Shown here piece by piece: positions 27,813 to 48,199 of a DNA stretch of 64,000 nt. The stretch is from Nostoc sp. UHCC 0702. GTDB lineage: Bacteria; Cyanobacteriota; Cyanobacteriia; Cyanobacteriales; Nostocaceae. Numbering within the stretch: the first letter of the stretch is position 1; every line of letters starts with the position of its first letter. Both the position numbers and the translations under genes were made by a program. The DNA lies in assembly GCA_017164015.1 (NCBI GenBank), contig CP071065.1, positions 1,764,501-1,828,500 on the forward strand, read 5' to 3'. Below the pieces are notes generated by a model. That model searched no databases. It was not told the origin of the DNA and saw only the letters and a program-made list of their open reading frames with translations.

Positions 27813-27838
27813 TGTTATTAATGTCAGCTTTTATGTGA

Positions 27839-28678: not shown

Positions 28679-28710
28679 TTAATCACCTCCTGGTTATTAT
28701 TAATAAACAA

Positions 28711-33591: not shown

Positions 33592-33920
33592 TAGTAATTG
33601 TCAGGGTCTATCTCTGCATTTGTGTCAGGTTTTGATAAATTGACAGTTAATTGGTCAACTCGATAGGAATCGTTGTTGGTTCCCCTAAAGGTGAATGACG
33701 GGTAGCCCTGGTCAATGTAAATACTTTGGTCAAGGTTGTTATCAAAGCCTGTTTTTGATAATTCTGACTGCGCTTTCAACACAATGCCAGCGAAAAGACT
33801 TTCAGCTCTATTTAAAGCTGCTGGTGTCAGTCTTGGTAAGTCTGCTTTGACAATTGTGATTGTATCAGCTGTTTGAGTTGCGCCAGGGCCAAAGACCTCT
33901 GTAAGTGTTGGTTCCGCCAT
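33591..33920 (-). CDS. Hypothetical protein, first gene of the fibre operon, 109 aa
   Basis: The N-terminus LTEVFGPGATQTADTITIVK and RLTPAALNRAESLFAGIVLKAQ define a small repeated family also seen in the next gene. The C-terminal half is beta-rich (SFTFRGTNNDSYRVDQLTV). No known function. As the most upstream gene of the nine-gene operon its promoter should lie in 33,921-34,141, shared with the divergent tyrosine recombinase gene. Confidence 0.65.
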   Translation of the reverse strand: MAEPTLTEVFGPGATQTADTITIVKADLPRLTPAALNRAESLFAGIVLKAQSELSKTGFDNNLDQSIYIDQGYPSFTFRGTNNDSYRVDQLTVNLSKPDTNAEIDPDNY

Positions 33921-33995
33921 AGAAACGAATTTTTTGTGAAGTGAATAAATCCGTTTTAGTCCCTAATTCCAAAATGGTAAATGTTCTTCTTTTAT

Positions 33996-34119
33996 GTAAA
34001 ACCGGAAGTATTACTGATGGCGTGAAACTATTGCTGTGAATAGTATTGATGCATATTTAGCTATTAGCTAAATACAAAAAACTTCCGGATTAACCTCTCA
34101 TTTAGGTAAAACCGGAAGT
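33996..34119. promoter_or_regulatory. Three CCGGAAGT repeats between divergent genes
   Basis: GTAAAACCGGAAGT occurs at 33,996 and again at 34,106, each followed by A/C-x-x-ACTGA. An inverted, slightly diverged copy ACTTCCGGATTAACC lies at 34,081. They sit in the divergent promoter region of the fibre operon and the recombinase. They could be operators or recombinase arm sites. Confidence 0.6.
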
Positions 34120-34141
34120 CACTGACATCAAAAATTAATCT

Positions 34142-34747
34142 ATGAAAAACAACCGCAATGGTCAAGCAGCTGTTTTCACGCTTGCCGAATATTCTAAAAT
34201 CCGTAAGAATATCCGCGCTCAAAAATACAAATTGCTTTTAGATTTGGCTTGGTTCACCGGTGAGCGCTGGGGGGCACTGGTACAGATGAAGGTTAGCGAT
34301 GTTTACGATTCTGATGGCAATCCGCGCAAGTCAGTTACTTTTCGGGCCAGAACTCGCAAGGCTTGCGGGGGAAAACAGAAAACTAAGAAAACCAGGGAAG
34401 TGCCAGTACACTCGACTCTTCGTGAAGTATTGAGCGCGTACACCCCAGATTCAGACTCAGAGTGGTTGTTTCCAGCCAGGAGGAACTACACCCAAGGGGA
34501 AACCAGCAAGCATATTACTCTGCGCTATGCGGATCTGGTGTTCCGTGAAGCTGTTGAAAGGGCCGGTCTAGCAAGTCGCGGGTTTAGTACCCACAGCAGC
34601 CGCCGCAGCTTCGTAACCCATCTGGCCAAAAAAGGCATTTCCCTGAGAATTATTCAAAAGCTTATGGGCTATGCGGATTTGAAAATGCTGTCACTGTACA
34701 TCGATGTGACTGATGAGGATTTGGAGGGTGCGATCGCTACACTATGA
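34142..34747 (+). CDS. Tyrosine-type site-specific recombinase, 201 aa
   Basis: A short catalytic-domain-only tyrosine recombinase (XerC/D-like). Arg I is in TGERWGAL (Arg42), the HxxR box is HSSR (His151, Arg154), and the nucleophile is Tyr186 in LSLYIDV. The usual His/Trp at the LGH position is Tyr177 (LMGYADL), a departure that still occurs in some family members. It lacks the N-terminal core-binding domain, so it may need a partner. The 2-bp junction of the large element does not look like its product; it may act on the CCGGAAGT repeats. Confidence 0.85.
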   Translation: MKNNRNGQAAVFTLAEYSKIRKNIRAQKYKLLLDLAWFTGERWGALVQMKVSDVYDSDGNPRKSVTFRARTRKACGGKQKTKKTREVPVHSTLREVLSAYTPDSDSEWLFPARRNYTQGETSKHITLRYADLVFREAVERAGLASRGFSTHSSRRSFVTHLAKKGISLRIIQKLMGYADLKMLSLYIDVTDEDLEGAIATL

Positions 34748-34896
34748 CCCAAGAACTATACCAGAAAATTGAGCAGCTTTATGTCAAAGCCACCCAAGAC
34801 TTGTACACGCCGCTGCAACTTGCTTAAACTTTAGAAGCAATGGCTAATCAAGCGTGGGAGGCAGTAGACAAACTCCTAGACTATGAAAAAAACTAA
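34744..34896 (+). pseudogene. Small gene with an in-frame stop
   Basis: An ATG overlapping the recombinase stop opens MTQELYQKIEQLYVKATQDL up to a TAA at 34,825. The same frame then continues TLEAMANQAWEAVDKLLDYEKN to a second TAA. Both parts are amphipathic helices, so this looks like one 50-residue gene with a nonsense mutation, or a 27-aa peptide. Confidence 0.4.
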
Positions 34897-34935
34897 CCAC
34901 AGGGAATACTAAATCCACACTTACATCAACCAAGT

Positions 34936-35406
34936 ATGGGATTACAGCTATTTTTCTCAATGCAACTTGATGAGACTCCCCAGTTGAACCGGGGGCGAAT
35001 ATTTTTAATTGACGACAACAGGGGCATTATTGGACGGTGGATTGCCACCAGCGGCGTGGGCACATTTCAAGATGTGGGCAACTGGAGCAAGCAAGGTGGT
35101 GGAGTTATCCCGCCGCTGTATGAGGTGAAGGATGCACCTAGTTTTTACACCGTCGCTACCAAGCCTGTAGATTTGCGCCATGTCAAAGGGGTAGAAGGCA
35201 ATGGCTATGCCATCACCCCATTTGAGGTTGTTACCAAAGCTGGGGTTAAGCGTTCTGACCTGCTGATTCATAAGGATGCAAACGCCCCAGGCTCACTAGG
35301 CTGCATTGTGTTGCCACCCCAGGAGTTTGAGGATTTTGAGAAAGTGTTTGTACGAGAAGCTAAGGGATTGAGTGACGTTAAGTTAAGCGTCGGTTATACT
35401 TATTGA
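34936..35406 (+). CDS. L,D-transpeptidase-like (YkuD/DUF2778-type) protein, 156 aa
   Basis: The C-terminal half has LLIHKDANAPGSLGCIVLPP, with His112 and Cys123 in the H...SxGC arrangement of YkuD-type L,D-transpeptidases and related cell-wall hydrolases. The usual Arg after the Cys is replaced by Ile-Val, as in DUF2778-like members. The N-terminal half is beta-rich. There is no signal peptide, so delivery by a particle or lysis system is possible. Within the element it could modify peptidoglycan, or be a toxin or lysin; which is unknown. Confidence 0.65.
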   Translation: MGLQLFFSMQLDETPQLNRGRIFLIDDNRGIIGRWIATSGVGTFQDVGNWSKQGGGVIPPLYEVKDAPSFYTVATKPVDLRHVKGVEGNGYAITPFEVVTKAGVKRSDLLIHKDANAPGSLGCIVLPPQEFEDFEKVFVREAKGLSDVKLSVGYTY

Positions 35407-35549
35407 CCTAGCAAAATAATTAATAGGTTAAAGTGCGATCGCGGCCTAGAGAAACGCGATCGCTATTTTCTTCTAGGCTTATTGCAACTTCTTCTCATTC
35501 CTGCATTGATGCAAATCCTCTAAGAAAATCAGCTATTGGAAATCACATC

Positions 35550-35687
35550 ATGGCTGATTCAAATAAAAAGCTTGATTTATCAATACTTTCAACCTCTACT
35601 CCGACCCCCGCGCAGCCGGGAAGCTGTCCTGGGCTGCGGCTGCTCCTGGTGGCCCCCGCTGCTGATTTCATTATTGAGAATGCTTGA
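35550..35687 (+). CDS. Possible small protein, 45 aa
   Basis: MADSNKKLDLSILSTSTPTP begins after a weak GGAAA at about 35,537. The C-terminus is hydrophobic (LRLLLVAPAADFIIENA). The composition is peptide-like and I do not recognise it. The following 35,690-35,747 is a GGGAGTA tandem repeat. A longer upstream frame from 35,433 is translated HIP1-rich noncoding DNA. Confidence 0.3.
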   Translation: MADSNKKLDLSILSTSTPTPAQPGSCPGLRLLLVAPAADFIIENA

Positions 35688-35747
35688 GAATATGGGTGTA
35701 GGAGAGTAGGGAGTAGGGAGTAGGGAGTAGGGAGTAGGGAGTAGGGG

Positions 35748-36467
35748 CTAATGTGACGAGTGAATCAACTTTTCAATCTCACTTGGGGTTTGACCATCTG
35801 CTAGAGCAAACTCCACCGCCGCCTTTCTCTGTTGCGCCAGGCGTGATTTCACATTGCCACCCCCAATGTGACAGTGCCGGATCTTCCTGCCCTCCATCCA
35901 GCAGTAGCGAAAGTATTTATGCTTTTTGGTGCCGCGCTGCACCCAGTACTCCTCTACCCAGTGAGTGTGTTCGGGAGCAACTTGAATAACTGGTTTTTGC
36001 TCCCGAACACTAGGTGTAACAGGTGTAGCTGATTTTACTTGCTCCCGAACATAATAATTTTGTTCGGGAGCATCGACGGTATCAGTTTGCTCCCGAACAG
36101 TATCGCAAGTATCTGCTGTTACCTGCTCCCGAACACTGTTATCGGGGGTTGCAGCGTCAGCTGTATCAGTCGGCTCTAGTTTTGGTTGGGATTGTTCGGG
36201 AGCAACTTGGGTGTCAATCAAATCGCTAATCAATTGATCGATAGTATCGTGAAAATCGCGCTCTATCTCTTCAATGGAGTAAGCAGTCGTTTCACAAGAA
36301 TAAGCATACTGACCTTCTGGAGAAAATAGATGATACTTGCACTGATATTTAGTTAACTTGCCGTGAGTAGTTTGACTAATCAGGCTAAACTCACCACGCC
36401 ATAACCAATAGAATTTGACCCAGGTTGTTGGTATTGTTGAGAGCGAAAATAAAGTCAGATGTTGCAT
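35748..36467 (-). CDS. Hypothetical protein with VREQ/APEQ repeats, 239 aa
   Basis: The N-terminal part (1-85) has a Trp/Tyr-rich segment. The middle (about 88-165) contains eight or so short repeats of the form VREQ or APEQ. The DNA of these repeats is TGCTCCCGAACA in one orientation and TGTTCGGGAGCA in the other, so the linker was built from a palindromic 12-mer. The C-terminal domain (KHKYFRYCWMEGRKIRHCHI, then GGNVKSRLAQQRKAAVEFAL) resembles a small domain common in cyanobacterial plasmid proteins. Function unknown. Confidence 0.65.
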   Translation of the reverse strand: MQHLTLFSLSTIPTTWVKFYWLWRGEFSLISQTTHGKLTKYQCKYHLFSPEGQYAYSCETTAYSIEEIERDFHDTIDQLISDLIDTQVAPEQSQPKLEPTDTADAATPDNSVREQVTADTCDTVREQTDTVDAPEQNYYVREQVKSATPVTPSVREQKPVIQVAPEHTHWVEEYWVQRGTKKHKYFRYCWMEGRKIRHCHIGGGNVKSRLAQQRKAAVEFALADGQTPSEIEKLIHSSH

Positions 36468-36521
36468 AATGTTAATTCACAAGTAAAATTGCTCCTGCCA
36501 ATAAACGGCAGGTTTTTTTAT

Positions 36522-36848
36522 TCAGACAATTGGATTATTCCCAAGTATCTGCTCACGTCTGTGACAAACTTGTTGGAAGTATTCAAACTGTCGCTTGGCT
36601 TGTTCAGTTATTTGATGGGCATTACTTGTTACTTGAGTAATTGCCTTATCGAAAGTACGAGGGGCACTCATGCCATCAGCGTTATAGATGTAATGGAATT
36701 TGTCGATAAGCACCTGTTCGCATTGATTATTTAGTTCAAGCATTTGTAAGAGTCTTTCATGGTCAATTAGCCAGTTGTACTTATTTTTGAAGTAGTTTTT
36801 GTAATAATCCTCCTTTGATGTAAGAGCGTAAAATCGACACCTCTCCAA
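36522..36848 (-). CDS. Hypothetical helical protein, 108 aa
   Basis: Mostly helical and charged, rich in Tyr, Asn and Gln (ERLLQMLELNNQCEQVLIDKF). No motif recognised. It precedes the VREQ-repeat gene on the same strand, separated by about 55 bp. Confidence 0.5.
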   Translation of the reverse strand: MERCRFYALTSKEDYYKNYFKNKYNWLIDHERLLQMLELNNQCEQVLIDKFHYIYNADGMSAPRTFDKAITQVTSNAHQITEQAKRQFEYFQQVCHRREQILGNNPIV

Positions 36849-36944
36849 AATGCCCTTAAGCTTTTCGGCGGTTTTGGCTGAAGCATAACGGCGAACTCCT
36901 TCAAAGAGTTCGCAAGTTATGGCTTCTTTCTTCTCAGGAACTTC

Positions 36945-37520
36945 TCATAGAAGTTCCTGAGAAGTTACTGAAGAGTTACTGAGGGGTGCTGAAATGCTTG
37001 TATTTTCAGGGGTTTCAGGTAAGATATCCGGCATTTTTTGACCGTCATTCGGTAAATTTATGCTGTTATTCGGTTCATTTATGCCGGATATAGGTTCAAG
37101 AATTGCCTCTGTTTTTTCAACGGGTTCCGGTTGGCTGTCGTTTAACCAATATTCTTTAATTCTTCTTGCACCATGCAGGTTAATTACTAGCCAACACGCT
37201 GTTTTACGACTGTCTTCAATTGCCGTTTCTCGTTTGAATTCAAATAGTCCTGCTTTGTATAAAAGTTGTCTGGCTAACCTAAATGCTTTCTCACCCAAGG
37301 ATGTTGTTAGCTTCATCCATCTACTACCATATTGGTCTGAAGCCCAGCATTCATTCCAGAGTGTTTGTATTGTTTTGGTTTGATTAATTACCCAGTGCAG
37401 GTCATCGACTGGGATGATACAGTGGGGTTTATTGTATTTGGTTGATGATTTTTTCTCTCTGTGGCGATTGAGAGAAATTACAGCAGATGGAGGATTGTTT
37501 TTTAAACTATGTTCTGGCAT
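36945..37520 (-). CDS. Plasmid-type hypothetical protein, possible winged helix, 191 aa
   Basis: Residues about 30-125 read like a winged-helix domain (AFRLARQLLYKAGLFEFKRE, then TACWLVINLHGARRIKEYWL). Residues about 130-191 form a low-complexity Pro/Asn/Ser tail. Similar arrangements occur in replication- or partition-related proteins of cyanobacterial plasmids, but I cannot name the family. If so, the excised circle might replicate or regulate itself. Confidence 0.55.
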   Translation of the reverse strand: MPEHSLKNNPPSAVISLNRHREKKSSTKYNKPHCIIPVDDLHWVINQTKTIQTLWNECWASDQYGSRWMKLTTSLGEKAFRLARQLLYKAGLFEFKRETAIEDSRKTACWLVINLHGARRIKEYWLNDSQPEPVEKTEAILEPISGINEPNNSINLPNDGQKMPDILPETPENTSISAPLSNSSVTSQELL

Positions 37521-37600
37521 AATTGTATTAGTTGATAACTATCAAAAGCCACCCTTGAAGCGAATCTATTGGTGGCTTTTTGATTTTTTTACGTAGTCGT

Positions 37601-37780
37601 CTATTTTGAGAACGAGTAGCCTCTAAACAAAATTGTGCAAATCACAATCAGTCCGATCGCTTGCAGAAAGCCAATTGGCCGAACTGTTGGGAATATGCCT
37701 GGCATTACTGCATTCTTTGTCAGCATCAGTGGTAGTGCTGTAGCTACAGCTACAAGTATTGTGGTTGCAACGATTAGCAA
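37601..37780 (-). CDS. Small two-helix membrane protein, 59 aa
   Basis: From a TTG at 37,780 the frame reads LLLIVATTILVAVATALPLM and later GFLQAIGLIVICTILF, two clear membrane helices joined by a Pro/Gly loop. No ATG is in frame, and the ribosome binding site is weak. The hydrophobic pattern makes chance unlikely. Its role is unknown. Confidence 0.45.
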   Translation of the reverse strand: MLIVATTILVAVATALPLMLTKNAVMPGIFPTVRPIGFLQAIGLIVICTILFRGYSFSK

Positions 37781-37867
37781 TAAAGGACATTTTTCATAGT
37801 GGTTAGTGGTCAGTTGTCAGTTGTCAGTGACGAGTAGAGTTACTTACGCAATGCCTTGAAAGACTTA

Positions 37868-37948
37868 CGACAATGTACCCTTTTGTACTTCTTCCAGCGA
37901 CAATGTACCCTTTTGTACTTCCAGCGACAATGTACCGTTTTGTACTTC
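37868..37948. repeat. Three iteron-like 24-bp repeats with GTAC motifs
   Basis: CGACAATGTACCCTTTTGTA begins each copy at 37,868, 37,898 and 37,925 (the third has CCG for CCC). Within each, GTAC occurs twice, 6 bases apart. Regular 27-30-bp spacing in an element with plasmid-like genes suggests iterons or an operator array. Confidence 0.7.
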
Positions 37949-38103
37949 CAGTAATTTCGGCAAGCAAAATACAAATAATACTTATACGTCCGCTTGCGCG
38001 TCTTGGTGTTTGGAGATTCTCTGTTCATGGGTTTGGGTGTTCGGGAGCAGGGGAGATGGGGGGCATTGGGAGCAGGGGGGCAGGGGAGCAGGGGAGAGGG
38101 GGA

Positions 38104-38171
38104 GAGGGGGACAAGTCAAGTAAGTCACTCGATTTTGTACAAAATCATCCACCGCCGCAATTGCTCGCTCA
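38104..38171 (+). repeat. 68-bp perfect direct repeat, copy 1
   Basis: Identical to 38,541-38,608. It contains the perfect palindrome ATTTTGTACAAAAT, echoing the TTTTGTAC core of the nearby iteron-like repeats. G-rich tandem repeats flank it on the left. Confidence 0.85.
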
Positions 38172-38224
38172 CGTCAAATTGGCTATTGGGCATTGGGAGC
38201 AGGGGAGCAGGGGGGAGTCATCTG

Positions 38225-38458
38225 TCAGCCCACGCGGTTTTGCTTGAGTACAAGACAGGCTTGCTGTATTGATGTGATGAGATTTGGATTGGACTGAAAT
38301 ATCTGTGGCAGTCTGTCTAAGATTTCGGCTGCCAATAATACAGCCTCAATCTCATTTAGTTCAGGGTCAACGCTTTTGATGAACTCTATGAATTTATCTA
38401 ATCTCTGGGTTGCCAGTAGAGCAACATTTATTGTTTGTGTTTCTTGTGGATTGGTCAT
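38225..38458 (-). CDS. Hypothetical protein, 77 aa
   Basis: A compact helical protein (LLATQRLDKFIEFIKSVDPE, LNEIEAVLLAAEILDRLPQI) without known motif. It lies exactly between two copies of a 68-bp direct repeat, so it could be a cassette that was inserted or could be deleted by recombination between them. Confidence 0.55.
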   Translation of the reverse strand: MTNPQETQTINVALLATQRLDKFIEFIKSVDPELNEIEAVLLAAEILDRLPQIFQSNPNLITSIQQACLVLKQNRVG

Positions 38459-38540
38459 TTGTCATTAGTTGTCAGTTGTCAGTAGGGAATTGGTAATTGG
38501 TAATTGGGCATTGGGTGTTGGGGAGATGGGGAGCAGGGGA

Positions 38541-38608
38541 GAGGGGGACAAGTCAAGTAAGTCACTCGATTTTGTACAAAATCATCCACCGCCGCAATTG
38601 CTCGCTCA
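38541..38608 (+). repeat. 68-bp perfect direct repeat, copy 2
   Basis: Second copy of the repeat at 38,104, with the same palindrome ATTTTGTACAAAAT at 38,570-38,583. The gap 38,459-38,853 otherwise holds TTGGTAA- and GGGGAGATG-type short repeats and no gene. Confidence 0.85.
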
Positions 38609-38853
38609 TGAAATTGGGCATTGGGTATTGGGTATTGGGGATTGGGGACTGGGGAGATGGGGAGTACTTGCCACACCCAAGGGCGCGGGTTATAATGTGC
38701 CGCCCGGTCATTAATTAACAGTTGACTGTGATCACAGTGTCCTGTTACTGGCATAATGCTTTTAGATGCGTATTCCTCATCCACCCAGCCATGAAAGCTG
38801 GGTGGTTATCGCACCTATGCAAAACCGCCCTCACCCATACGAGTAAGGACGGT

Positions 38854-39083
38854 TTATGGTTCTTCGGAATTTTCTTCTAGTTCTTCGTCGCCTTCATCTT
38901 CTAGTTCTTCATCTTCTTGAGCGGCTAAATCATAGATTTCTTGTCTGATCAGCTTCATCTCTTGCTCAAAGGAAGCTGTAAAGCTCTCGTTATCGTCAAG
39001 CCGCGCCTTTAAGCGTTGACGGTGAGAACCAACGTAATCATTGAAACCTTTCTCTAATATCTCCAGGCGCTTTAGGATTTTCC
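38854..39083 (-). CDS. Coiled-coil acidic domain, probable -1 frameshift extension of the RHH gene
   Basis: This reading frame carries ILKRLEILEKGFNDYVGSHR, a coiled coil and a Glu/Asp-rich tail (EDEELEDEGDEELEENSEEP). In its own frame the upstream part (back to 39,291) looks like translated shadow of the RHH gene. A slippery heptamer GGGAAAA (plus-strand 39,078-39,084) lies in the RHH frame as G_GGA_AAA, two codons before its stop, and a -1 slip there enters this frame. The joined product would be about 143 residues: RHH domain, coiled coil, acidic tail. Confidence 0.55.
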
Positions 39084-39275
39084 CAAGAGCATCGCTTGTG
39101 GTTTTGACGATGACATTTGTCCCAGTGGTATCTCTCCCCTGGCTATCTTGGCTACTAAATCCGCCCTGCTTAATCCCATCGCTTCGGCCCTGGAGCGAAA
39201 CATCTCCCAATCCTTTTGGCTGAGGAACAGCGACACATTTTTTGCGTCGTCCGCTAATTTTTTTGGTCTGGCCAT
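39072..39275 (-). CDS. Ribbon-helix-helix-like DNA-binding protein, 67 aa
   Basis: MARPKKLADDAKNVSLFLSQ is followed by KDWEMFRSRAEAMGLSRADL, a beta strand plus two helices, as in RHH/CopG or MobC-like proteins of plasmids and integrative elements. It ends at TAA two codons after a GGGAAAA heptamer, so a longer frameshift product is possible. Four copies of CATAyAGAAAA lie upstream, two forming a perfect palindrome, which fits autoregulation. Confidence 0.75.
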   Translation of the reverse strand: MARPKKLADDAKNVSLFLSQKDWEMFRSRAEAMGLSRADLVAKIARGEIPLGQMSSSKPQAMLLGKS

Positions 39276-39309
39276 CTATAAATTCATTCACAACAGTAAA
39301 CCCATTTTA

Positions 39310-39398
39310 CATACAGAAAATAAAATCTCATATAGAAAACTATTGACAGGAAGTTTTCTATATGATTAACATAACATTAGTTTCTCATACAGAAAACT
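39310..39398. promoter_or_regulatory. Operator cluster upstream of the RHH gene
   Basis: CATACAGAAAAT (39,310), CATATAGAAAACT (39,329), its exact reverse complement AGTTTTCTATATG (39,352) and CATACAGAAAACT (39,386). The middle pair forms 13-bp perfect arms with a 10-bp spacer containing TTGACA. Arrays of half-sites like this are typical RHH operators. Confidence 0.75.
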
Positions 39399-39631
39399 AA
39401 ATTCTTGAGTTTTCTCTTTCTCACCCATCGCCAACCGGGAACCAATGCAGTTAGCACCTTGGCAGAGAACAGCAATGAATTCAGCCAAACTTGTCCCGCG
39501 TTGAGCGATCGCGTGAGTGATGAGTGATGAGAGCAACAAGTCGCGGAGATTAAAAAAATCTGGTGACTGTAATCTGTACTGCGGCCGCAGTCTGTAACTG
39601 ACCTGAGAGGTGAATTCTACTTTTAGCCAGG

Positions 39632-39718
39632 GGCGATAGTGACAACATCGCCATAGGAGGCGGGTAGATGTACCTGGGTGAAAATCCCTTGGAGGCAGGC
39701 GTGTCAAATTCGACACGC
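39632..39718. other. Two hairpins in a gene-free stretch
   Basis: GGCGAT (39,632)/ATCGCC (39,647) and GCGTGTC (39,699)/GACACGC (39,712) form two short perfect hairpins. The stretch 39,400-39,820 has no convincing gene on either strand. It could be an origin, an oriT or an RNA leader; nothing decides among these. Confidence 0.35.
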
Positions 39719-39821
39719 ACAGATTACAGCCATGAAGTAGCACGCCATACATGGCACTGCAACGGATAACAGTTTTTAAAAACACGCGCAAACCCCTGCG
39801 GCCGGTCGCAATTTATTAACC

Positions 39822-39995
39822 ATGAAACCAAAATATGTAACCAGAGAAAAACGCATTCGGCAGTTAGAAAAAGAAGTCCAACAACTCAAGCAGCAAGTGC
39901 AAACACTCACAGAACTGCTCGACTTTACAACGGCGATGGTTTACCGCTCTCGCTCAATTGAACGCGCCAAACTTGGGCGAGATTTCCATGACTAA
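39822..39995 (+). CDS. Small coiled-coil protein, 57 aa
   Basis: KRIRQLEKEVQQLKQQVQTL is a perfect leucine-zipper-like heptad stretch (about 10-35), followed by AMVYRSRSIERAKLGRDFHD. It is too short for most gene callers. It opens a run of small plus-strand genes that leads to the recombinase at the right end. Confidence 0.55.
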   Translation: MKPKYVTREKRIRQLEKEVQQLKQQVQTLTELLDFTTAMVYRSRSIERAKLGRDFHD

Positions 39996-40102
39996 CTACT
40001 ACCGTCACAACTGCCAGCAAAACCAGTTCACTTATACAAACGGCGTAGGTTGCCACTGCTACCACGTCCCGATTTGGTGATTTTAAGTAAGGAAACAACA
40101 AC

Positions 40103-40264
40103 ATGACAGTCCAAGAACTAATTGAACAATTGCAACTTATTGAATCTGGATTTGAGGTAGTTGCTTTTGACTTCAGCAGCTGCTCGTCGTATGTAATCAC
40201 AAGAGTCAGTGAGAATGAGTTTGGTGAGGGCCCACTCTTACTTGTGTTTGATAGTGACGAATAA
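40103..40264 (+). CDS. Small hypothetical protein, 53 aa (family 1, copy 1)
   Basis: MTVQELIEQLQLIESGFEVV aligns with MRLTIEQLIEKLKRYPADST at 40,438. AAGGA at 40,089 gives a good ribosome binding site. With the following remnant at 40,278 it forms one half of a duplicated two-gene unit. Confidence 0.55.
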   Translation: MTVQELIEQLQLIESGFEVVAFDFSSCSSYVITRVSENEFGEGPLLLVFDSDE

Positions 40265-40277
40265 AAGAAATCTACAC

Positions 40278-40343
40278 ATGGACAGAATCAAAATTCGCTT
40301 GATTGGCTCACCAAAAGGTGTAAACGCTTTTGCTGAATTCTGA
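40278..40343 (+). pseudogene. Truncated copy of the family 2 small gene
   Basis: MDRIKIRLIGSPKGVNAFAE matches MGRIEIRLIGTDSDVEAFAA at 40,650, then meets a stop after 21 codons. It is therefore a 3'-truncated duplicate. Confidence 0.5.
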
Positions 40344-40437
40344 ATTCTTCAGTAAAGTAGCCCTTACTGTTCCCAGTGCTTTGGAAATGGTCAATAGGAC
40401 TAAAAAACAAGTAAAACGAAACGACGGGAAACTCATC

Positions 40438-40650
40438 ATGAGATTAACAATCGAACAACTAATTGAAAAGTTAAAACGATATCCAGCCGACTCTACGGTC
40501 TTTGTTGACGATAGCGATGGTTACTGTTTTGATATTTCAGAAATCTATGTTTCACCAGACGACAACGTGATATTAAGCATAGATTCAGCTTCCAAATATA
40601 AAGAAAAAAAAGTCGTTGTTGAGCCAATCGATCCTCGCTACCTGAAGTAA
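40438..40650 (+). CDS. Small hypothetical protein, 70 aa (family 1, copy 2)
   Basis: MRLTIEQLIEKLKRYPADST continues VFVDDSDGYCFDISEIYVSP, a small alpha-beta protein like those many cyanobacterial mobile elements carry. An in-frame extension upstream to 40,330 has no support. Its stop overlaps the next ATG by one base. Confidence 0.6.
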   Translation: MRLTIEQLIEKLKRYPADSTVFVDDSDGYCFDISEIYVSPDDNVILSIDSASKYKEKKVVVEPIDPRYLK

Positions 40651-40847
40651 TGGGACGAATCGAAATCCGACTAATAGGAACTGACTCTGATGTAGAAGCT
40701 TTTGCGGCTTTTCTAGTCAAAACATCTGGCTACATCACTCCACTGAAAATCATCAGCGAGGGTGAAAATCGATCATCGCGCAAAAGCACCGACAAACTCC
40801 GCTATATGGAAGTTGATTTTGATAGCAGTGCAATGCAAGGTGAGTAA
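40650..40847 (+). CDS. Small hypothetical protein, 65 aa (family 2)
   Basis: MGRIEIRLIGTDSDVEAFAA continues as a basic region with SRKSTDKLRYMEVDFD at the end. Translationally coupled to the preceding gene. Family unknown; a truncated sister copy lies 0.4 kb upstream. Confidence 0.6.
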   Translation: MGRIEIRLIGTDSDVEAFAAFLVKTSGYITPLKIISEGENRSSRKSTDKLRYMEVDFDSSAMQGE

Positions 40848-41063
40848 TAACTTATACATCATCTCCCTCATCTCCCCTTCCCCCCCTATCCCCAGAGGGG
40901 GCCCCGAGTCCCCCCTGCTCCCCTGCTCAAAATTGGCGCGCCCATACAGTTATGCCCTTTCACTCCTTGGTAAAGCTAGACGAAACACTAACTAACAACC
41001 ATGAAAAACTCTTAAGTTTCACACGATTTTAGTCGCCAAAGTCGAGAAAACGCGACATTTCCT

Positions 41064-41145
41064 GGGGATAAAACTAGCGGACTAGTGCAGCACTGCGGTG
41101 TTGTAAGGCACTCCTCGCCTTGGGTTCAACTCCCTTTTATCCCCA
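41064..41145 (+). tRNA. tRNA-like gene with extended acceptor stem and long variable arm
   Basis: 82 nt. GGGGATAAAA pairs perfectly with TTTTATCCCC (acceptor of 9-10 bp). A 3-bp D-stem (ACT/AGT) holds an AGCGGACT loop. The anticodon stem CAGCA/TGTTG (one G-T) closes a 6-nt loop CTGCGG with GCG after the T. A variable arm AAGGC/GCCTT has 7 loop bases, and the T-arm is GGG-TTCAACT-CCC. The T-loop and D-loop signatures are tRNA-like. The 9-10/3 acceptor/T layout with long variable arm recalls allo-tRNAs. The 6-nt anticodon loop is abnormal, so it may be a pseudo-tRNA. The surrounding 40,848-41,465 has no other gene. Confidence 0.5.
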
Positions 41146-41465
41146 CCCTTAAGAAGATCAGCCAGTAGCAATCACTGGCTACTGGCTTTCCCTAAACGGA
41201 GGTATAAAACTAGACGCAAATCAACCACAACATCACAACAAAATGCACTTTTAACCATCGCCAGTAGAGCTACTGGCGCTTTCTTCCCATCACCAATGCC
41301 ATCAACAAAGTTCGTAGGAGGTTTTGCCTATGCCTACGTAGAGCATGTAGTAACTGCTTCATTAAACCTTTTTAAATTTATAGGGATGACACACCAGGAC
41401 GCTCGTCCGCTTGTGTGGGCTGGCCCTGGTGTTTTTTTGAAACTTTGGATGCAAGGAATTTGAAT

Positions 41466-41654
41466 ATGCAAGTCATACTCACTGATAAACCGTGGGCGAT
41501 TTACTGCACGTCTAAAACCTGTCAATACCAGTGTGTTGGGCGCTACCGCAACCGCCAAGACGCTGAAGACCAGCTAACATTTTTACGCAAACATGTACCA
41601 CAAGCCAAATTTGTACTTTTGTCAGACATCGAGGAGCAAAGTTTACATGTCTAA
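41466..41654 (+). CDS. Small Cys-containing hypothetical protein, 62 aa
   Basis: AIYCTSKTCQYQCVGRYRNR carries three Cys, then a helix QDAEDQLTFLRKHVPQAKFV. AAGGAA lies 8 bases upstream of the ATG. Unknown; it overlaps the next gene by 8 bp. Confidence 0.6.
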   Translation: MQVILTDKPWAIYCTSKTCQYQCVGRYRNRQDAEDQLTFLRKHVPQAKFVLLSDIEEQSLHV

Positions 41655-42108
41655 CCCACTTCGGTACTACACTGCTGACATAAAGAGCGACGACGGCATA
41701 CTCGACGAGCTAGAACTACGTTATGGCAGCTACTTTGAGCTGATGATTGACCGTGACAAGTGGTTCTTGCTCAACAGCATAAGTATCAGCTTGTGTGTTC
41801 AGGCACTAGGTCAAACCAGCAATGAAGTTATCGCCCTTGGTGCTAGGTTACAAACCCTAGATGCTAGTACCAGAAAAGCCATTATCAAGTTTTTGATTGA
41901 TCAGCTAATCCCACCAGTATTACCTGAACCTTCTTTTAGCTATTTTGTCATAGCCTATGCACTGATGAGCGAGGAGTTAACTAAGTACAAAGTCGATACC
42001 ACCGCCCAAGATTTGCGCCATTCATTTTTCGACCAAGCTGAACAAAAGTTTAAGCAGATGTCCCCTAACGAGTTGGAGGGTTTTCTACAACAAAATTACC
42101 CAGCGTGA
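41647..42108 (+). CDS. Hypothetical protein, 153 aa
   Basis: Unrecognised helical protein. The ATG at 41,647 overlaps the previous stop; an upstream extension to 41,593 is out of place inside that gene. Segments ALGQTSNEVIALGARLQTLD and RKAIIKFLIDQLIPP are amphipathic helices. It is probably cytosolic. Confidence 0.6.
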   Translation: MSNPLRYYTADIKSDDGILDELELRYGSYFELMIDRDKWFLLNSISISLCVQALGQTSNEVIALGARLQTLDASTRKAIIKFLIDQLIPPVLPEPSFSYFVIAYALMSEELTKYKVDTTAQDLRHSFFDQAEQKFKQMSPNELEGFLQQNYPA

Positions 42109-42185
42109 TTATGGAGCGATCGCTGTGCCTTTGGAGGAGAGCGATCGCGTGTCATCTACCTTGTCAAAAATAGCACAGTTTAAAA

Positions 42186-42581
42186 ATGTATGACTCATTA
42201 AACCTTGAAGATTTTCGCCATATTTTATACATCATCAGGGACAACGATAAACAGCATGACTGGTTAACCCACAAAGAAATTCGAGTTTACTTGCATTGTT
42301 TGCGCGAACTGTGGACAGAACTTAACATTTCTGATTCTTACTGGTTGCCAAGCATCAAGTTTCATTTTCATGCAATGGCGCTACGGATTTCTCACGAGAA
42401 ACGGGCAATTCTTGCAGCACGATTACTTGATTTGCTGGTTCGCCTAGAACAACCCAACAAATCAAAACAATTTGATAAATCTACTGAAGAGGCGAAAAAT
42501 AACTCTACTGAACCAAAGGAGGCTGACACGGACGATATCCCTTTTGAATCTGGGGAATTGCTCCCCTTAAACCCAAGTTAA
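42186..42581 (+). CDS. Hypothetical protein, 131 aa
   Basis: Helical N-terminal domain (about 1-95; ALRISHEKRAILAARLLDLL) and a charged tail ending EADTDDIPFESGELLPLNPS. The DNA of that tail recurs, diverged, outside the element at 52,150-52,220, which shows that a related element once lay there. Function unknown. Confidence 0.6.
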   Translation: MYDSLNLEDFRHILYIIRDNDKQHDWLTHKEIRVYLHCLRELWTELNISDSYWLPSIKFHFHAMALRISHEKRAILAARLLDLLVRLEQPNKSKQFDKSTEEAKNNSTEPKEADTDDIPFESGELLPLNPS

Positions 42582-42652
42582 CTAAATTACAAGTGCGATA
42601 TGTTTTACGACTACCAACAGAAAGACGAAATTATTGACGAGGACATTTTGAT

Positions 42653-42991
42653 ATGACTCAACAATCAGCTACTTATTACCGAATTTTAAATTTAGGTAAT
42701 TACGAAAATAAGCGTTTAGAGCGCTTTCGTGAAATTAAAGAACACGAAGATCCAACTACTGTTCCTCGCCAACTAATGCTAGAAGTTGAGCAATTAATCA
42801 GGGAGGATGTTGAAAAAGAAATAGTTCAACACATTGAGAATCTCAAGGCTCAAGAAAGAGAATTTCGGCAAGAAGTAACAAGACTGAAAACCGAAATTGA
42901 GCAACTGAGAGCAGAAAAAGCTCAATTACAAGTTGAACCTAACTCAATTCAAGACACTTCCGCCGACGATACATCATCAACAGCTTTTTAA
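42653..42991 (+). CDS. Coiled-coil hypothetical protein, 112 aa
   Basis: Residues about 35-95 form a long coiled coil (AQEREFRQEVTRLKTEIEQL). The N-terminus is YYRILNLGNYENKRLERFRE, a motif seen in small cyanobacterial mobile-element proteins whose function I cannot name. It is followed closely by three overlapping small genes. Confidence 0.6.
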   Translation: MTQQSATYYRILNLGNYENKRLERFREIKEHEDPTTVPRQLMLEVEQLIREDVEKEIVQHIENLKAQEREFRQEVTRLKTEIEQLRAEKAQLQVEPNSIQDTSADDTSSTAF

Positions 42992-43001
42992 GGTTCAACT
43001 T

Positions 43002-43289
43002 ATGACGACAGAAGAATCTGATTTTTTGATGGACAAAGAAAATTATGTACTCAATAGCATCATGAGTGGGATTGCAATTCAGTATTTATGCAATCTCACA
43101 GGTAAATCCTTGAACTATTGGGTTACAAGGTTGAGCAAGGAAGCCAATGAACAGTGTGACCAATTAACCAAAGAACAAGTCGAGCAAACTGTCCAAGACT
43201 ACCTAAAAAACAAATACAAGAATGATTCAATTGTGAGTTTAAGCTATGACAACAGAACAAAGAATCAGGGCAATAGAAAGGACGATTGA
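43002..43289 (+). CDS. Hypothetical protein, 95 aa
   Basis: Starts MTTEESDFLMDKENYVLNSI; AAGG lies 8 bases before this ATG, which is preferred over a frame extending to 42,933. Helical, unknown. Its 3' end overlaps the next gene by 44 bp. Confidence 0.55.
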   Translation: MTTEESDFLMDKENYVLNSIMSGIAIQYLCNLTGKSLNYWVTRLSKEANEQCDQLTKEQVEQTVQDYLKNKYKNDSIVSLSYDNRTKNQGNRKDD

Positions 43290-43443
43290 TATATTGTGCC
43301 GACATCAGCTGTCAATTGCAATCAGCTTTAGTGAGTTGGTTGAACAACTCGAACATGGAATTAGTGACTATTCCTTAATTAAAACAAAAGTCAACAATGA
43401 TGTTGGACTACTTCAACAAGTCAAACCATTGAGTAAACAATGA
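43246..43443 (+). CDS. Small hypothetical protein, 65 aa
   Basis: MTTEQRIRAIERTIDILCRH is a regular helix; the rest is also helical. Overlaps upstream by 44 bp and the next gene by 4 bp (ATGA). Unknown. Confidence 0.5.
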   Translation: MTTEQRIRAIERTIDILCRHQLSIAISFSELVEQLEHGISDYSLIKTKVNNDVGLLQQVKPLSKQ

Positions 43444-43694
43444 CTGAAAACAACACTAATACCGAAAACATTCCCCAACCGGCTTTAAGTTCTGATTACT
43501 ATCCAGTTTGGCACTCACTTGAATACGTCAAGGGGAAAATTATTAGCGCTCAAAGATATATGAGTGCTTATAGTAATGGGAATTACCAAAGCTCCCAACA
43601 AATTAAGGATTTTCTAGTACCAGCTTCTGAAAAGTTAATCCAAATTATCGACAACGATTTGGATTATGAGGAGGAGGAGGAAGAGTCAGAATAA
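43440..43694 (+). CDS. Acidic-tailed hypothetical protein, 84 aa
   Basis: Starts at an ATGA overlap. Central helix SLEYVKGKIISAQRYMSAYS, acidic end DYEEEEEESE. It is the last gene before the structured non-coding region, so that RNA could be transcribed from this operon's promoter. Unknown function. Confidence 0.55.
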   Translation: MTENNTNTENIPQPALSSDYYPVWHSLEYVKGKIISAQRYMSAYSNGNYQSSQQIKDFLVPASEKLIQIIDNDLDYEEEEEESE

Positions 43695-43699
43695 CCGCC

Positions 43700-43965
43700 T
43701 GATGATGGCTACGCCGACCCCGTAGCCGAAACTAGGGCAGTTTGCCCTAGTCGCGGGTTGGGTCGCTACCAATTCGCCCCTGGTGCAAGCCAGGGAGGGA
43801 ATGAGCGGTGGTACGGGTTTTTAGCAGGAAATGACCGTAAGGTTTCTTGATTTCATGAATCCACCACCGCAATTTATTCCCTGTCCGTGCTGGTTTAAGA
43901 GTGAATTGTTAACACTAATTTGGGAGATTCGTGACCATTTTAGCACGGTTTAAGCTGTCAAAAAA
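43700..43965 (+). ncRNA. Candidate IS110-type bridge RNA
   Basis: The region has four 5' hairpins (GGCTACG/CGTAGCC 43,707-43,727; CTAGGGCA/TGCCCTAG 43,732-43,750; TTGG/CCAA about 43,758-43,772; CCCTGG/CCAGGG 43,778-43,795). Two larger stem-closed loops follow. Loop 1 (stem GCGGTGG/CCACCGC, 43,805-43,870) carries TAGCAGGAAAT and CTTGATTTC, matching the two halves of the rebuilt target. Loop 2 (stem CCGTGCT/AGCACGG, 43,885-43,948) carries AGAGTGAAT and GATTC, matching the joined ends of the element. Order and strand of the guides are those of IS110 bridge RNAs. Exact RNA ends are unknown. Confidence 0.82.
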
Positions 43966-43989
43966 TAGCTCCCGTTACCGAACCATGAC

Positions 43990-45429
43990 ATGAAAATATT
44001 AGGTTTAGACGTGTGTAAAAACAGCGTCGTAGCTTGGGAATTAATATCAATTCCCCGCAACTTTAGAGCCTATTTTCGAGATAATAAACGCCCGAAAGAT
44101 GATGACCCTTTAACATTTAAAGCTGACGCTACTGGGGTCACAAATTTATTAGCTCTAAAGCCTGACGCTGTTGTTTTAGAACCTACTGGCATCCATTACA
44201 GCTGGATTTGGGCCCATATTTGTGCTGCTGAAGGGATACAAGTTTTGTGGGTAGGTCATGCTGAGGCGACGTACTACCGAAAACAAAATAAACTCCCTGA
44301 CAAAAACGACCAAGCCGACGCCCTAGCACTTGCAGCCTACGCGCTGCTGCATTGGGGTGATGATGAATTCTTCCTTCAGTTCGAGCCAGGCAAGGTGGCG
44401 CAGGTGCGAATCTTGTGGTTGCAATTGCAATCAGTTAATAAGATACAAAGCCCAATTATCAACCGCGCTCGTCAACAGCTAGCACGGGAATTTCCCGAAG
44501 CGGCACTACTGCCGAGCAAGCCAGCTCTTAGTGATGGTATGTTGCCCCTGTGGTCGTGGCTGGCTGGGCGCGATCGCAATACCAAACGCAAAACCACGTA
44601 TTACGACAAACTGCATGAAAAGTCCATCGCCAAAAAGTACGGCGTTGAGATATCAACGTTCACCAGGCGATTATCGAATATGCTGTGTGATCTGCGTGAT
44701 TGGGAAATCGAAATCCAAGATGAGATGGTACATTTTCTCAACGCCCCCGAATTCGCCCCTTACCGTAAGGTGATGGGAGATTTCGGCATTGGTATCAGGC
44801 CCCAAGCTTTACTTATCAGCCAAATTTACCCAATTACCAAGTTTGAATCTTTGGGACGATTTAAGCGCCGGTTGGGATTGGCGAAGGATGAAGAGAGCAG
44901 CGGCGATAAGGAATCCATGAAAACCGGCTCAGGTTCAAAAATGTGCCGCAGTCAATTGTTTTTGTGGATCTTAGACATGATTGCTCCAGAACACGCTCGT
45001 CCCAAAAACGAGTGGGGGCGGAAGCTGGGGGAATTCTACGACGCTCGAAAGTCCCGATTTCAGGATAATCCAGAACTTTGGAAACAGAAAACCGTGGCTC
45101 GTCTCCAAAGGCAAGCACTCGCAGAACTCAAGCGATCGCTCTCACAAAATCTGTTGTCAATGGTCAGTAAAGAACTTCAGCCGCAAATGCAAGCTACCCT
45201 TGATGCCACGCTGCAAGCGATGCAGCTGACCTTAGCTACTTCCATGTCCGCGGGGGATGTTGCTCCAGGGGTGAAGGAGAAGGAAGTTAAGCGAGGGTTC
45301 GGCAATCTAGTAATTTCACAAACCGCAGCCTACGGACTGCGGTTGATGTTCAAGGAGTTGAAAAAGGCTGTTGTCAAGTCCAGTAGTCATGATAGCTTAG
45401 CTATCGTCTGTTGCGAAAGGGGCGATTAG
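43990..45429 (+). CDS. IS110/Piv-type DEDD recombinase, 479 aa
   Basis: The N-terminal RuvC-like domain has Asp7 (LGLDVCKN), Glu64 (VLEPTGIHY), Asp107 and Asp110 (DKNDQADALA), the DEDD set of IS110-family enzymes. The C-terminal Transposase_20-like domain has GIGIRPQALLISQIYPITKF, then RFKRRLGLAKDEESSGDKES with the Ser-Gly (Ser303/304) expected for the nucleophile. Longer than typical IS110 proteins (300-450 aa). It directly follows the candidate bridge RNA and is the last gene before the element's right end, so it is the likely agent of insertion and excision. Confidence 0.88.
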   Translation: MKILGLDVCKNSVVAWELISIPRNFRAYFRDNKRPKDDDPLTFKADATGVTNLLALKPDAVVLEPTGIHYSWIWAHICAAEGIQVLWVGHAEATYYRKQNKLPDKNDQADALALAAYALLHWGDDEFFLQFEPGKVAQVRILWLQLQSVNKIQSPIINRARQQLAREFPEAALLPSKPALSDGMLPLWSWLAGRDRNTKRKTTYYDKLHEKSIAKKYGVEISTFTRRLSNMLCDLRDWEIEIQDEMVHFLNAPEFAPYRKVMGDFGIGIRPQALLISQIYPITKFESLGRFKRRLGLAKDEESSGDKESMKTGSGSKMCRSQLFLWILDMIAPEHARPKNEWGRKLGEFYDARKSRFQDNPELWKQKTVARLQRQALAELKRSLSQNLLSMVSKELQPQMQATLDATLQAMQLTLATSMSAGDVAPGVKEKEVKRGFGNLVISQTAAYGLRLMFKELKKAVVKSSSHDSLAIVCCERGD

Positions 45430-45440
45430 CATTTAAAACC

Positions 45441-45470
45441 GAGGGGATGAGTAGAGATACTCATCCCCTC
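45441..45470 (+). terminator. Perfect 13-bp hairpin after the recombinase
   Basis: GAGGGGATGAGTA and TACTCATCCCCTC are exact complements around GAGA, 11 bp after the recombinase stop and 32 bp before the element end. No T tract follows. It may terminate transcription or mark the right end. Confidence 0.65.
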
Positions 45471-45491
45471 AACTATCAGTGAAACTTTGTT

Positions 45492-45513
45492 AACCTAGAG
45501 TGAAATCAAGCAC
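45492..45513 (+). other. Right junction (attR) of the 18.4-kb element
   Basis: The element ends AACCTAGAGT-GA and host coding sequence resumes AATCAAGCACAC. GA at 45,502-45,503 is the core shared with attL. The last 7 bases AGAGTGA are repeated in loop 2 of the candidate bridge RNA. Confidence 0.85.
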
Positions 45514-46064
45514 ACATCAGGCAAGCTCCTTTATTTTTGGTTTGGTTAGCAGATTTGGCTCGTATAGCTCACGTTGCTGACAGTCGTGGCATATCTCATG
45601 ATGCTTTAGAATACTTGGAAATGTTTGTGATGGCAACCGTTGATGCCACGTTGGCGGCGCAAAATGCAGCGGTAGCCGCTGAGTCTCTGGGGTTGGGAAC
45701 AGTATATATCGGTGGTATCCGCAACAAGCCGGAAGAGGTCGCCAGGGTGATCAATTTGCCTACTTCCGTGTATGCTGTGTTTGGGTTGTGTGTAGGCTAT
45801 CCTAATCCCGATGCGGCGGCTGCGGTGAAGCCACGTTTACCCCAGTCTGCTGTGTTGCACCGCGAAACTTATAAATTAGCAGACCAAGATGAAGCGATCG
45901 CTCACTACAACAACATCATCAAAGAGTTCTATACTGAACAAAAGATGAATATTCCTGGCGATTGGTCAGAACACTCAGCCCAAAGGATTGCAACTGTGGA
46001 GTCTTTGAGAGGACGCGATCGCTTGCGTGAAGCTCTCAATAACCTCGGCTTTGGGTTACGATAA
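45504..46064 (+). pseudogene. Nitroreductase, 3' part
   Basis: Begins NQAHIRQAPLFLVWLADLAR and continues with AAQNAAVAAESLGLGTVYIG, the conserved central and C-terminal nitroreductase motifs, ending GLR. It completes the 87-codon start at 26,801. A TGA directly upstream (45,501-45,503) belongs to the element. A TTG at 45,537 could allow translation of a useless fragment. In restored form it would be an FMN enzyme using NADPH, perhaps delivering reduced flavin to the SsuD-like enzyme. Confidence 0.9.
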
Positions 46065-46602: not shown

Positions 46603-47007
46603 ATGGAAGTAAAACAGTGCAGAGGCTACGTTTACGCAATTGAATATCATATTGTATGGTGTGTTAAGTATAGACACAAGGTACTGAAGGATGAAATAGC
46701 TGAGTTCCTGAAAGAGGTTCTAATTGAGACGGCAATTATCTATAAATTTAAAGTCGAGAGTCTTGAGGTAGTAGAGGATCATGTTCATGTTTTAGTATCT
46801 GCAACGCCTCAGCACACTATTCCGAATATAGTCAAAATGCTAAAAGGAATATCAGCTAGAAAGCTATTTTTAAAATTTCCCGAACTCAAAAAAAAGTTGT
46901 GGGGAGGTCATCTTTGGAATCCTTCATATTTTGTAAGCACTGTTTCAGAAAATACAGAAGCACAAGTGAAGAAATACATAGAGAACCAAAATGCAGAAAG
47001 CGTTTAA
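46603..47007 (+). CDS. tnpA: Y1 HUH transposase of IS200/IS605
   Basis: The 134-aa protein has HIVWCVKYRHKVL, the HUH pair His60/His62 in EDHVHVLVS, and the catalytic Tyr125 in VKKYIENQ. It cuts single-stranded DNA at TTGAT-like sites and needs no duplication. All key residues are present. It overlaps tnpB by 17 bp. Confidence 0.95.
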   Translation: MEVKQCRGYVYAIEYHIVWCVKYRHKVLKDEIAEFLKEVLIETAIIYKFKVESLEVVEDHVHVLVSATPQHTIPNIVKMLKGISARKLFLKFPELKKKLWGGHLWNPSYFVSTVSENTEAQVKKYIENQNAESV

Positions 47008-48199
47008 AGTTACACTCATTCTTAACCACAACCAAGAAGTCTTAATTAATAAGAGTATTGGTTGTGCAAGGTTTGTGTATAACCACTTCCTAGCATTAAA
47101 ACAAGAGTTATACCTCACCGAGCAAAAAACGTTAAACTATAATGCTTGTAGTCAGCGACTAACTCTACTCAAAAAAGAAGTCGAATGGCTCCAAGAGGTA
47201 GATAAGTTTGCCTTACAAAACTCACTTAGGAATTTAGAGACAGCATACAAAAACTTTTTTGCTGACTTCAAGAAAATTAAAGGTAGAAAAAACGTATGCT
47301 TTCCTAAATTCAAAAAGAAGCATGGGTGCAAGCAGTCTTACAAAACCAACCTGACTAATGGCAACATTCAGGTAATTGAGAATCGTTTAAAGCTTCCCAA
47401 GCTAGGATGGGTGAAGTTTCATAAATCTCAGGAAATTACTGGAAAACTTGTAAATGTTACTGTAACTCGTACTTCATCAGATAAATATATTGCTAGTATT
47501 CTGTGTGAAACAGAGATGGAGAGACACTCAATAGTGGCTCAAAATATTGGTTTAGACCTGGGAATTAATTCTTATCTTGTTACAAGCAATGGTGAAGTTG
47601 TAGATAATCCCAAATATTACCGGACTCAAAAAAGGAAGTTACGTAAAGCACACAAAAAACTATCCCGCACTGTAAAAGGTAGTAGTAATAGAGTCAAAGC
47701 AAAAATCAAGCTGGCTCGTACCTACGAACGTATTACGAATTTGAGAGATGACTTTCTACACAAACTTTCAACTCGCCTAATTAAAGAAAATAGTATTATC
47801 TGTATCGAAGATTTGCGAGTCACCAACATGGTTAAGAATCATAAATTATCTTTGAGTATTTCAGACGCTAGTTGGTCTAAGTTCGTTACCATGCTCGAAT
47901 ATAAAGCTTTATGGCATGACAGAATTGTGCAGAAAGTTGGTACGTTTTATCCTTCGTCTCAGACCTGTAATTGTTGTCGTTTTGTTAACCCATTAGTTAA
48001 AGATTTAAAGCTGCGCGAATGGTCTTGTCCACAATGTAGTAGTTACAACCTAAGAGACAATAATGCAGCTTTGAACATATTGGATGAGGGATTGAGATTA
48101 ATAGCCGCCGTGGGTATCCCGGAGGCTCTAAACGCCTGTAGAGAACTTGTAAGTCCTGGATCTTTTCAGGCAGAGATCGTTGAAGCAGGAATCGCGTGA
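46991..48199 (+). CDS. tnpB: TnpB RNA-guided nuclease of IS200/IS605
   Basis: The 402-aa protein has the three RuvC acids: Asp189 in GLDLGINSYL, Glu273 in CIEDLRVTN and Asp356 in RDNNAALNIL. A zinc finger (CNCC...CPQC, about 318-348) is intact. TnpB proteins use a right-end RNA to cut DNA next to the insertion target motif, helping the element persist. It appears intact and active. Length is typical. Confidence 0.95.
   Translation: MQKAFKVTLILNHNQEVLINKSIGCARFVYNHFLALKQELYLTEQKTLNYNACSQRLTLLKKEVEWLQEVDKFALQNSLRNLETAYKNFFADFKKIKGRKNVCFPKFKKKHGCKQSYKTNLTNGNIQVIENRLKLPKLGWVKFHKSQEITGKLVNVTVTRTSSDKYIASILCETEMERHSIVAQNIGLDLGINSYLVTSNGEVVDNPKYYRTQKRKLRKAHKKLSRTVKGSSNRVKAKIKLARTYERITNLRDDFLHKLSTRLIKENSIICIEDLRVTNMVKNHKLSLSISDASWSKFVTMLEYKALWHDRIVQKVGTFYPSSQTCNCCRFVNPLVKDLKLREWSCPQCSSYNLRDNNAALNILDEGLRLIAAVGIPEALNACRELVSPGSFQAEIVEAGIA

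Follow-up and report, generated by a model that had tools for sequence, protein, structure and literature searches.

A nitroreductase gene of Nostoc sp. UHCC 0702 is split by an 18.4-kb stretch of DNA, and the locus raises the question of what placed this insert at that one site. The window analysed here, a stretch of 64,000 nucleotides, contains both halves of the gene together with everything between them, and an earlier note on this DNA had claimed that a short loop at 43,805-43,870 matches both halves. With a probability of about 0.93, we read this loop as the part of a predicted bridge RNA that recognises the target, and the RNA as the likely guide by which an IS110-type recombinase inserts the 18.4-kb element.

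The 5' part of the nitroreductase gene (26,801-27,061, plus strand) ends in the left target CTAGCAG followed by the core GA (27,053-27,061, CTAGCAGGA), and the 3' part (45,502-46,064, plus strand; PF00881, E=6.4e-8) begins with the core GA and the right target AATCAAG, its first nine bases being the right target half GAAATCAAG (45,502-45,510). Joining both flanks at GA yields a single open nitroreductase frame. In 14 of 59 other genomes, a 400-base query made from the joined flanks aligned across the junction, with the best match to an uninterrupted site in G002, of the same genus, at 96% identity across all 400 bases, and the same query against its own genome returned two separate halves. The rebuilding of the interrupted gene proposed in the earlier note was thus upheld. 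Both the joined frame and the empty sites indicate that the insertion is scarless at a dinucleotide core, for which GA and GAA are indistinguishable. Similar empty sites were found for relatives of the element. The site occupied in G005 was uninterrupted in three of the five genomes of its genus and occupied in two, and the site occupied in G158 was uninterrupted in eight of 11 genomes, split in one and matched by its right half alone in two. These empty sites are continuous across the junction, with a few differences in the relatives of G158.

The element itself measures 18,442 bases from core to core (27,060-45,501). Its left end is the 10-mer GAATCCCCAG (27,060-27,069, plus strand), which occurs nowhere else in the 56 kb of the window that were examined, and its right end, CTAGAGT with the core GA, lies at 45,495-45,503 on the plus strand. 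When joined, the ends read CTAGAGT-GA on the right-end side and GA-ATCCCCAG on the left-end side.

The predicted bridge RNA region (43,697-43,989, plus strand, with approximate RNA ends) lies directly upstream of the recombinase gene. The fold of a 295-nt region gave z = -5.4 and was better than that of all 200 shuffles. RNAalifold returned 42 pairs from 17 aligned sequences, 21 of them with two-sided, compensating changes. Covariation was assessed on 38 of these 42 pairs, one helix of four pairs being left out, and 97.5% of the cells in the 38 pairs were paired. These pairs show 85 two-sided changes; shuffles gave 27 +/- 3.7, and slid versions never exceeded 24. The closing stems of the target and donor loops both fall within covarying helices, and the conservation of stems among homologues that the earlier note had foreseen is borne out by this covariation. 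As judged from sequence and covariation, a structured RNA with two internal loops thus precedes the gene. The first of these, the target-binding loop (43,805-43,870, plus strand), is closed by a 7-bp stem, GCGGTGG/CCACCGC (43,805-43,811/43,864-43,870). It carries the left target guide TAGCAGGAAAT (43,822-43,832, plus strand), which occurs once in the window against 0.10 expected from shuffles, and the right target guide CTTGATTTC (43,846-43,854, plus strand), which is the reverse complement of GAAATCAAG. Every letter and coordinate that had been given earlier for guides, target and stem was confirmed in the sequence, and the match of the loop to both halves of the split gene stands.

The second loop (43,897-43,930), which lies beyond what the earlier note had found, matches the right end of the element and, less fully, its left end. 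Its left donor guide AAGAGTGAA (43,897-43,905, plus strand) matches the right end CTAGAGTGA and covaries with the right end in relatives. The last five letters of the right donor guide GGGAGATTC (43,922-43,930, plus strand), GATTC at 43,926-43,930, are complementary to the left end GAATC, and the letter preceding them is mismatched, as is this sixth base in the copies compared. Left donor guide and right end agreed in 28 of 29 cases and vary jointly, through the forms AGAGT, AAAGT, ACAGT, AGAGG, AGAAG, AGACT and AGAAT. The variety of donor guides is low, such that 243 of 812 wrong pairings also match, and none of 50,000 permutations reached the observed total. In G205 the donor-guide search landed at a wrong place, and the right end of that locus which does fit has one donor mismatch.

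The gene downstream of the RNA (43,990-45,429, plus strand) encodes an IS110-type DEDD recombinase of 479 aa. Residues D7, E64, D107, D110 and S304 are invariant in 29 aligned recombinase sequences, that of the window included, and by its position we take S304 to be the catalytic serine. The C-terminal transposase domain PF02371 was matched at 23.3 bits, above the cut-off of 21.3, and the DEDD domain PF01548 at E=1.3e-5 with a score of 25.5, below the Pfam cut-off of 29. A profile of these aligned sequences found one solved structure, that of the ISCro4 transposase (9t56, E=5.7e-4).

Relatives of the element were collected by three routes. The recombinase was found at E<=1e-60 in 15 of 217 same-family genomes, and the high-identity set included 17 loci from named genomes; Nostoc spongiaeforme FACHB-130 (L007) and Anabaena catenula FACHB-362 (L011) are among the carriers. 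In nine genomic regions that reach far upstream the left end had been located using the guide, and was re-tested guide-free through GAATCCCCAG, which occurs once in each region and is preceded by the region's own left guide in 9/9 (eight independent sites). Of seven shorter loci, L005 has GAATCCCCAG at a joined end, and the others lack it. The right flanks of 13 independent high-identity copies matched their guides at 58 of 65 letters (9/13 exact; 0/100,000 permutations as good), with one mismatch each in G157 and G166, two in G199 and three in G031. By the second route, a cargo gene (cluster 20) present in 8/217 genomes led to seven regions. Four of them hold further elements, whose recombinases are just 31-38% identical; the RNA is present in all four, and GAATCCCC is unique in each and has the left guide directly before it (4/4). 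As for the other three regions, L137 holds a partial recombinase, and L138 and L140 have no recombinase in the stretch examined.

By the third route, a phylum-wide sample, the recombinase was found at E<=1e-40 in 22 of 386 genomes. The 27 distant loci obtained carry the 5' motif of the RNA in 19 cases and the donor-loop motif in 23, and in none of them does the GAATCCCC left end occur in the 0.3-1.5 kb of sequence examined upstream of the recombinase. Upstream regions were taken from 17 of these loci. Four of these regions did not reach far enough for the left end to be tested; G053 and G076b were kept for their right ends, and G197 and G251 were dropped. Of the 13 whose upstream region extended 19.8 kb or more, all but G269 have a left end 10.0-17.8 kb away that is preceded by the left guide; these 12 left ends are 12 of 16 GAATCCCC occurrences. 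The 12 elements span five cyanobacterial families (f1, f3, f6, f20 and f24 of the tool's scheme). In 14 loci right ends were sought from the donor guide alone, and the predicted right target stood next to the right end at 6/6 letters in nine and at 5/6 in four.

Guides were then compared with flanks over 31 element sites, the window's included, of which 24 had a testable independent left flank. The left guide equals the left flank exactly in 24/24 independent sites (120/120 letters). On the right side the match was 6/6 in 22 of 31 sites, 5/6 in seven, 4/6 in one (G199) and 3/6 in one (G031), that is, 174 of 186 letters over all 31. None of 50,000 permutations of the guides was as good, either for the left or for the right, in keeping with the earlier claim that the match exceeds chance. 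Exact wrong pairings were rare. The 2/552 on the left arise from the two G301 copies, whose guides are shared; of the 2/930 on the right, one is a G301 pairing and the other a chance pairing of G053 with G031. The right end was found independently of the guide in 25 of the 31 rows and with the guide known in six, the first right-end pattern having been set after the first loci were read together with their guides; among the 25 guide-independent right ends, 17 were exact, six had one mismatch and two were worse. The guide of G167 is AAAAA and hence little informative. Left out of the counts were G007 (which shares its site with G005), L016 (same as L015), G103b/L005 (ends joined, with no target), G269 (guide unmatched), G114 (identified at a later stage and in a different way), the truncated or RNA-less loci L013, L014 and L017-L021, and the fragments in G083 and G156.

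According to the earlier note, the guides of homologous elements should co-vary with each copy's own insertion site, and homologues whose loop does not match their own target would speak against a bridge RNA programmed for its site. Most sites match, and the expectation is borne out with four exceptions. G269 has a degenerate RNA and no matching left guide; in G114, where recombinase and RNA are present, the left flank is the right-end-like CTAGAGT, which differs from the guide CTATT; and G031 and G199 match poorly on the right. A target loop programmed for its own site is thus supported, by left guides that match exactly in 24/24 sites and right guides in 22/31.

These comparisons also place the window's insert in a family of 8-19-kb elements rather than among small insertion sequences, again beyond what the earlier note had found. 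Complete elements of the family measure 7,831 to 19,017 bases, with 6.6-17.8 kb from left end to recombinase, and their gene layout is common to elements whose recombinases are 31-44% identical to that of the window. From left to right it consists of a left block, a short tyrosine recombinase-like protein, further small genes and, at the right end, the RNA followed by the recombinase. The left block combines small proteins with a large collagen-like or coiled protein and lies mostly on the minus strand, being reversed in G245 and G333. In the window it includes a 765-aa collagen-repeat protein resembling phage tail fibre proteins (29,724-32,021, minus strand; PF01391, E=1.9e-52; phrog_1806, E=2.8e-50) and a lectin-like protein (32,541-33,257, minus strand; Laminin_G_3, E=1.1e-8). 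The tyrosine recombinase-like protein of the window (34,142-34,747, plus strand; 201 aa; PF00589, E=9.3e-23) is conserved in the element family. Such a protein occurs in 12/12 distant elements with defined ends and measures 187-247 aa in 11 elements, roughly the length expected of a catalytic domain by itself. A conserved protein of cluster 1 (35,748-36,467, minus strand) has no assigned function. One element encodes an endolysin-like protein (phrog_90, E=1.2e-30) and another a protein with a weak replication-initiator match (phrog_428, E=3.7e-4); most cargo proteins scanned fall in no recognised family. A Walker-A motif is absent from the window-element ORFs kept (at least 60 aa), and thus no phage assembly ATPase is visible among them.

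Some further features of the element and its surroundings were noted in passing. Cluster 21 (L047:6595-7419 and relatives) is a conserved left-block protein of 270-370 aa with no recognised family, for which a model with pLDDT 82 gave no convincing fold match. The right part of the element has short inverted repeats around 'gccagtagc..gctactggc' (41,160-41,290), where ARAGORN found no tRNA. Just right of the element (46,603-48,199) a small transposase-like ORF is followed by a TnpB-like ORF, both named by eye, and this pair splits a short-chain dehydrogenase-like gene. The two G301 copies, L146 and L147, share 98.9% identity across their right-hand 3.7 kb; elsewhere they are 88-95% identical or unalignable, as if cargo had been exchanged.

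Joined ends were found in two settings. In an 8.8-kb contig of Nostoc calcicola FACHB-3891 (contig90, L005) the sequence CTAAAGT-GA-ATCCCCAG at 4,752-4,768 has a right end abutting a left end with the recombinase adjacent. By alignment the contig is a circular permutation of the G166 element and may be a circle or a tandem copy; no overlap of the contig ends was found, and the missing middle is unplaced. The sequence CTAGAGT-GA-ATCCCCAG, or its CTAAAGT form, also occurs in 17/217 genomes. This 17-base pattern was rejected as proof of circles, being unspecific to IS110-carrying elements. Nine of ten joined-end loci read had no recombinase in the left flank (1.5 kb in seven, less than that in L063 and L067). 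Seven regions, 40-60 kb long, have left-block genes of the family after the joined-end sequence, and just G114 among them has an IS110 recombinase and RNA in reach, with a guide that mismatches its flank. Two joined-end junctions lie 19.6 kb apart in G156, as a tandem pair, and the DNA between them encodes a VapE/DUF3854 protein and a protein of 375 aa whose phage-integrase match falls below the cut-off. This sister element has the left-block genes and the joined end CTAGAGT-GA-ATCCCCAG in common with the window's family and differs in its VapE/DUF3854 and integrase-like proteins, no IS110 recombinase having been detected in it. Taken together, the sister elements suggest, without proving it, that in some members of the element family another integrase gave way to the RNA-guided recombinase. 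Intact joined ends and left-block genes, mostly with no IS110 recombinase, were observed in L059-L063, L065-L067 and the regions L158-L172, and L058 has the 17-mer with the family genes absent.

An alternative agent of integration would be the tyrosine recombinase-like cargo protein, with the IS110 recombinase and its RNA as passengers. A phage-integrase domain protein is indeed conserved in the element family, and the sister element has an intact right-end/left-end junction and the 375-aa integrase-like match with no IS110 recombinase detected. However, the insertion sites of the first set share little beyond GAA and yet the RNA guides track each of them, the element ends match the donor loop, and the 187-247 aa of the cargo protein in 11 elements amount to about the catalytic domain alone. 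We therefore consider integration by the tyrosine recombinase-like protein very improbable. Ordinary IS110 elements are minimal and carry their RNA in the left non-coding end (PMC11208160, as far as drawn on here), from which it might be argued that the IS110-type unit is a short insertion sequence inside an unrelated larger element to which the far left end belongs. Against this, in 25 loci the far left end bears the left target that the RNA specifies, at distances of 6.6-17.8 kb; no closer GAATCCCC lies in the 0.3-1.5 kb examined upstream of the recombinase in the 27 distant loci; and the joined flanks yield uninterrupted sites, while the cargo layout is common to the family. Hardly any weight can be given to such a nested arrangement.

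That the guide matches record earlier insertions and today's copies are dead is somewhat easier to entertain, and in our estimate still unlikely. Two species, G005 and G007, carry the insertion at one and the same site, the RNA of G269 is degenerate, and the recombinase is broken into fragments in G083 and G156. In contrast, the recombinase gene of the window has an uninterrupted frame and retains the five catalytic residues, and one contig (L005) carries the abutted right-end/left-end junction. The two G301 copies, whose RNA regions differ at 1/481 bases, sit at different matching sites, with the same left target flanking both, and this too argues against dead copies.

For insertion guided by the RNA, the following order of events can be proposed. 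The predicted RNA would be transcribed and bound by the recombinase, and its target loop would pick one site, here inside the nitroreductase gene, and the joined ends of the element itself would be held likewise by the second loop. Directed strand exchange at GA would then insert the circularised element with no target bases lost, and excision would restore the nitroreductase gene. The match between loop and site holds at most of the related 8-19-kb elements tested, and the predicted RNA therefore likely steers the insertion of large elements.

The arrangement has close parallels. IS110 bridge RNAs carry left and right target guides followed by donor guides, in the order seen here (PMC11208160, in the parts consulted). 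According to the same parts of that source, the element shares with IS621 and the IS110 group a DEDD recombinase with a conserved serine, an RNA upstream with two internal loops, target guides in the same order and strand, donor guides, a dinucleotide core and scarless insertion. It differs from them in its GA core, where IS621/IS110 have CT, and in size, with 7.8-19.0 kb between ends and 6.6-17.8 kb from left end to recombinase (PMC11208160). By inference, the promoter that IS110 elements form at their circle junction would here be many kilobases from the RNA (PMC11208160). As with the seekRNAs of IS1111/IS110 elements, the guide RNA lies in a non-coding region, matches both target strands and is naturally reprogrammed; an IS1111 element has moved an added cargo gene, but in the passages drawn on seekRNA elements are short insertion sequences with artificial cargo, whereas here a large natural cargo is conserved (PMC11187229). 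The filamentous phages Nf of Neisseria and Zuza8, Zuza27 and phiOH16 of Thermus have an IS110-family transposase, the presumed integrase, at one provirus end, and thus resemble the element in having such a recombinase at one end of a larger unit; they have different genes, the window-element ORFs lack a Walker-A motif, and the sections of that report used here describe no guide RNA for the phages (PMC11437467).

The element is not a recombinase gene alone between short non-coding ends, but 18,442 bases with many genes. Given also its IS110-like working and the recombinase and RNA features found here, we regard the system as a new form of IS110 bridge-RNA recombination with a large cargo. Literature searches among open-licence PMC papers listed none whose title or abstract describes large bridge-RNA elements in cyanobacteria, which is no proof of absence. 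Bridge RNAs have been described in minimal insertion sequences, and here nature appears to move a conserved unit of 8-19 kb with them. About thirty natural guide-target pairs in several cyanobacterial families are now available to learn from, and two questions become testable. One is the size of cargo that a bridge recombinase can move unaided in its native host, the other how a large element reaches new targets through changes in its RNA. Recombinases that suit cyanobacteria and large inserts may also come from this family. For the elements themselves, we put forward, as a tentative idea that may well prove wrong, that a widespread, satellite-like lineage of cyanobacterial elements swapped a protein-specified integrase for an RNA-programmed one, in which some ten guide letters would place 8-19 kb with fibre-type genes and the drift of these letters would open new sites.
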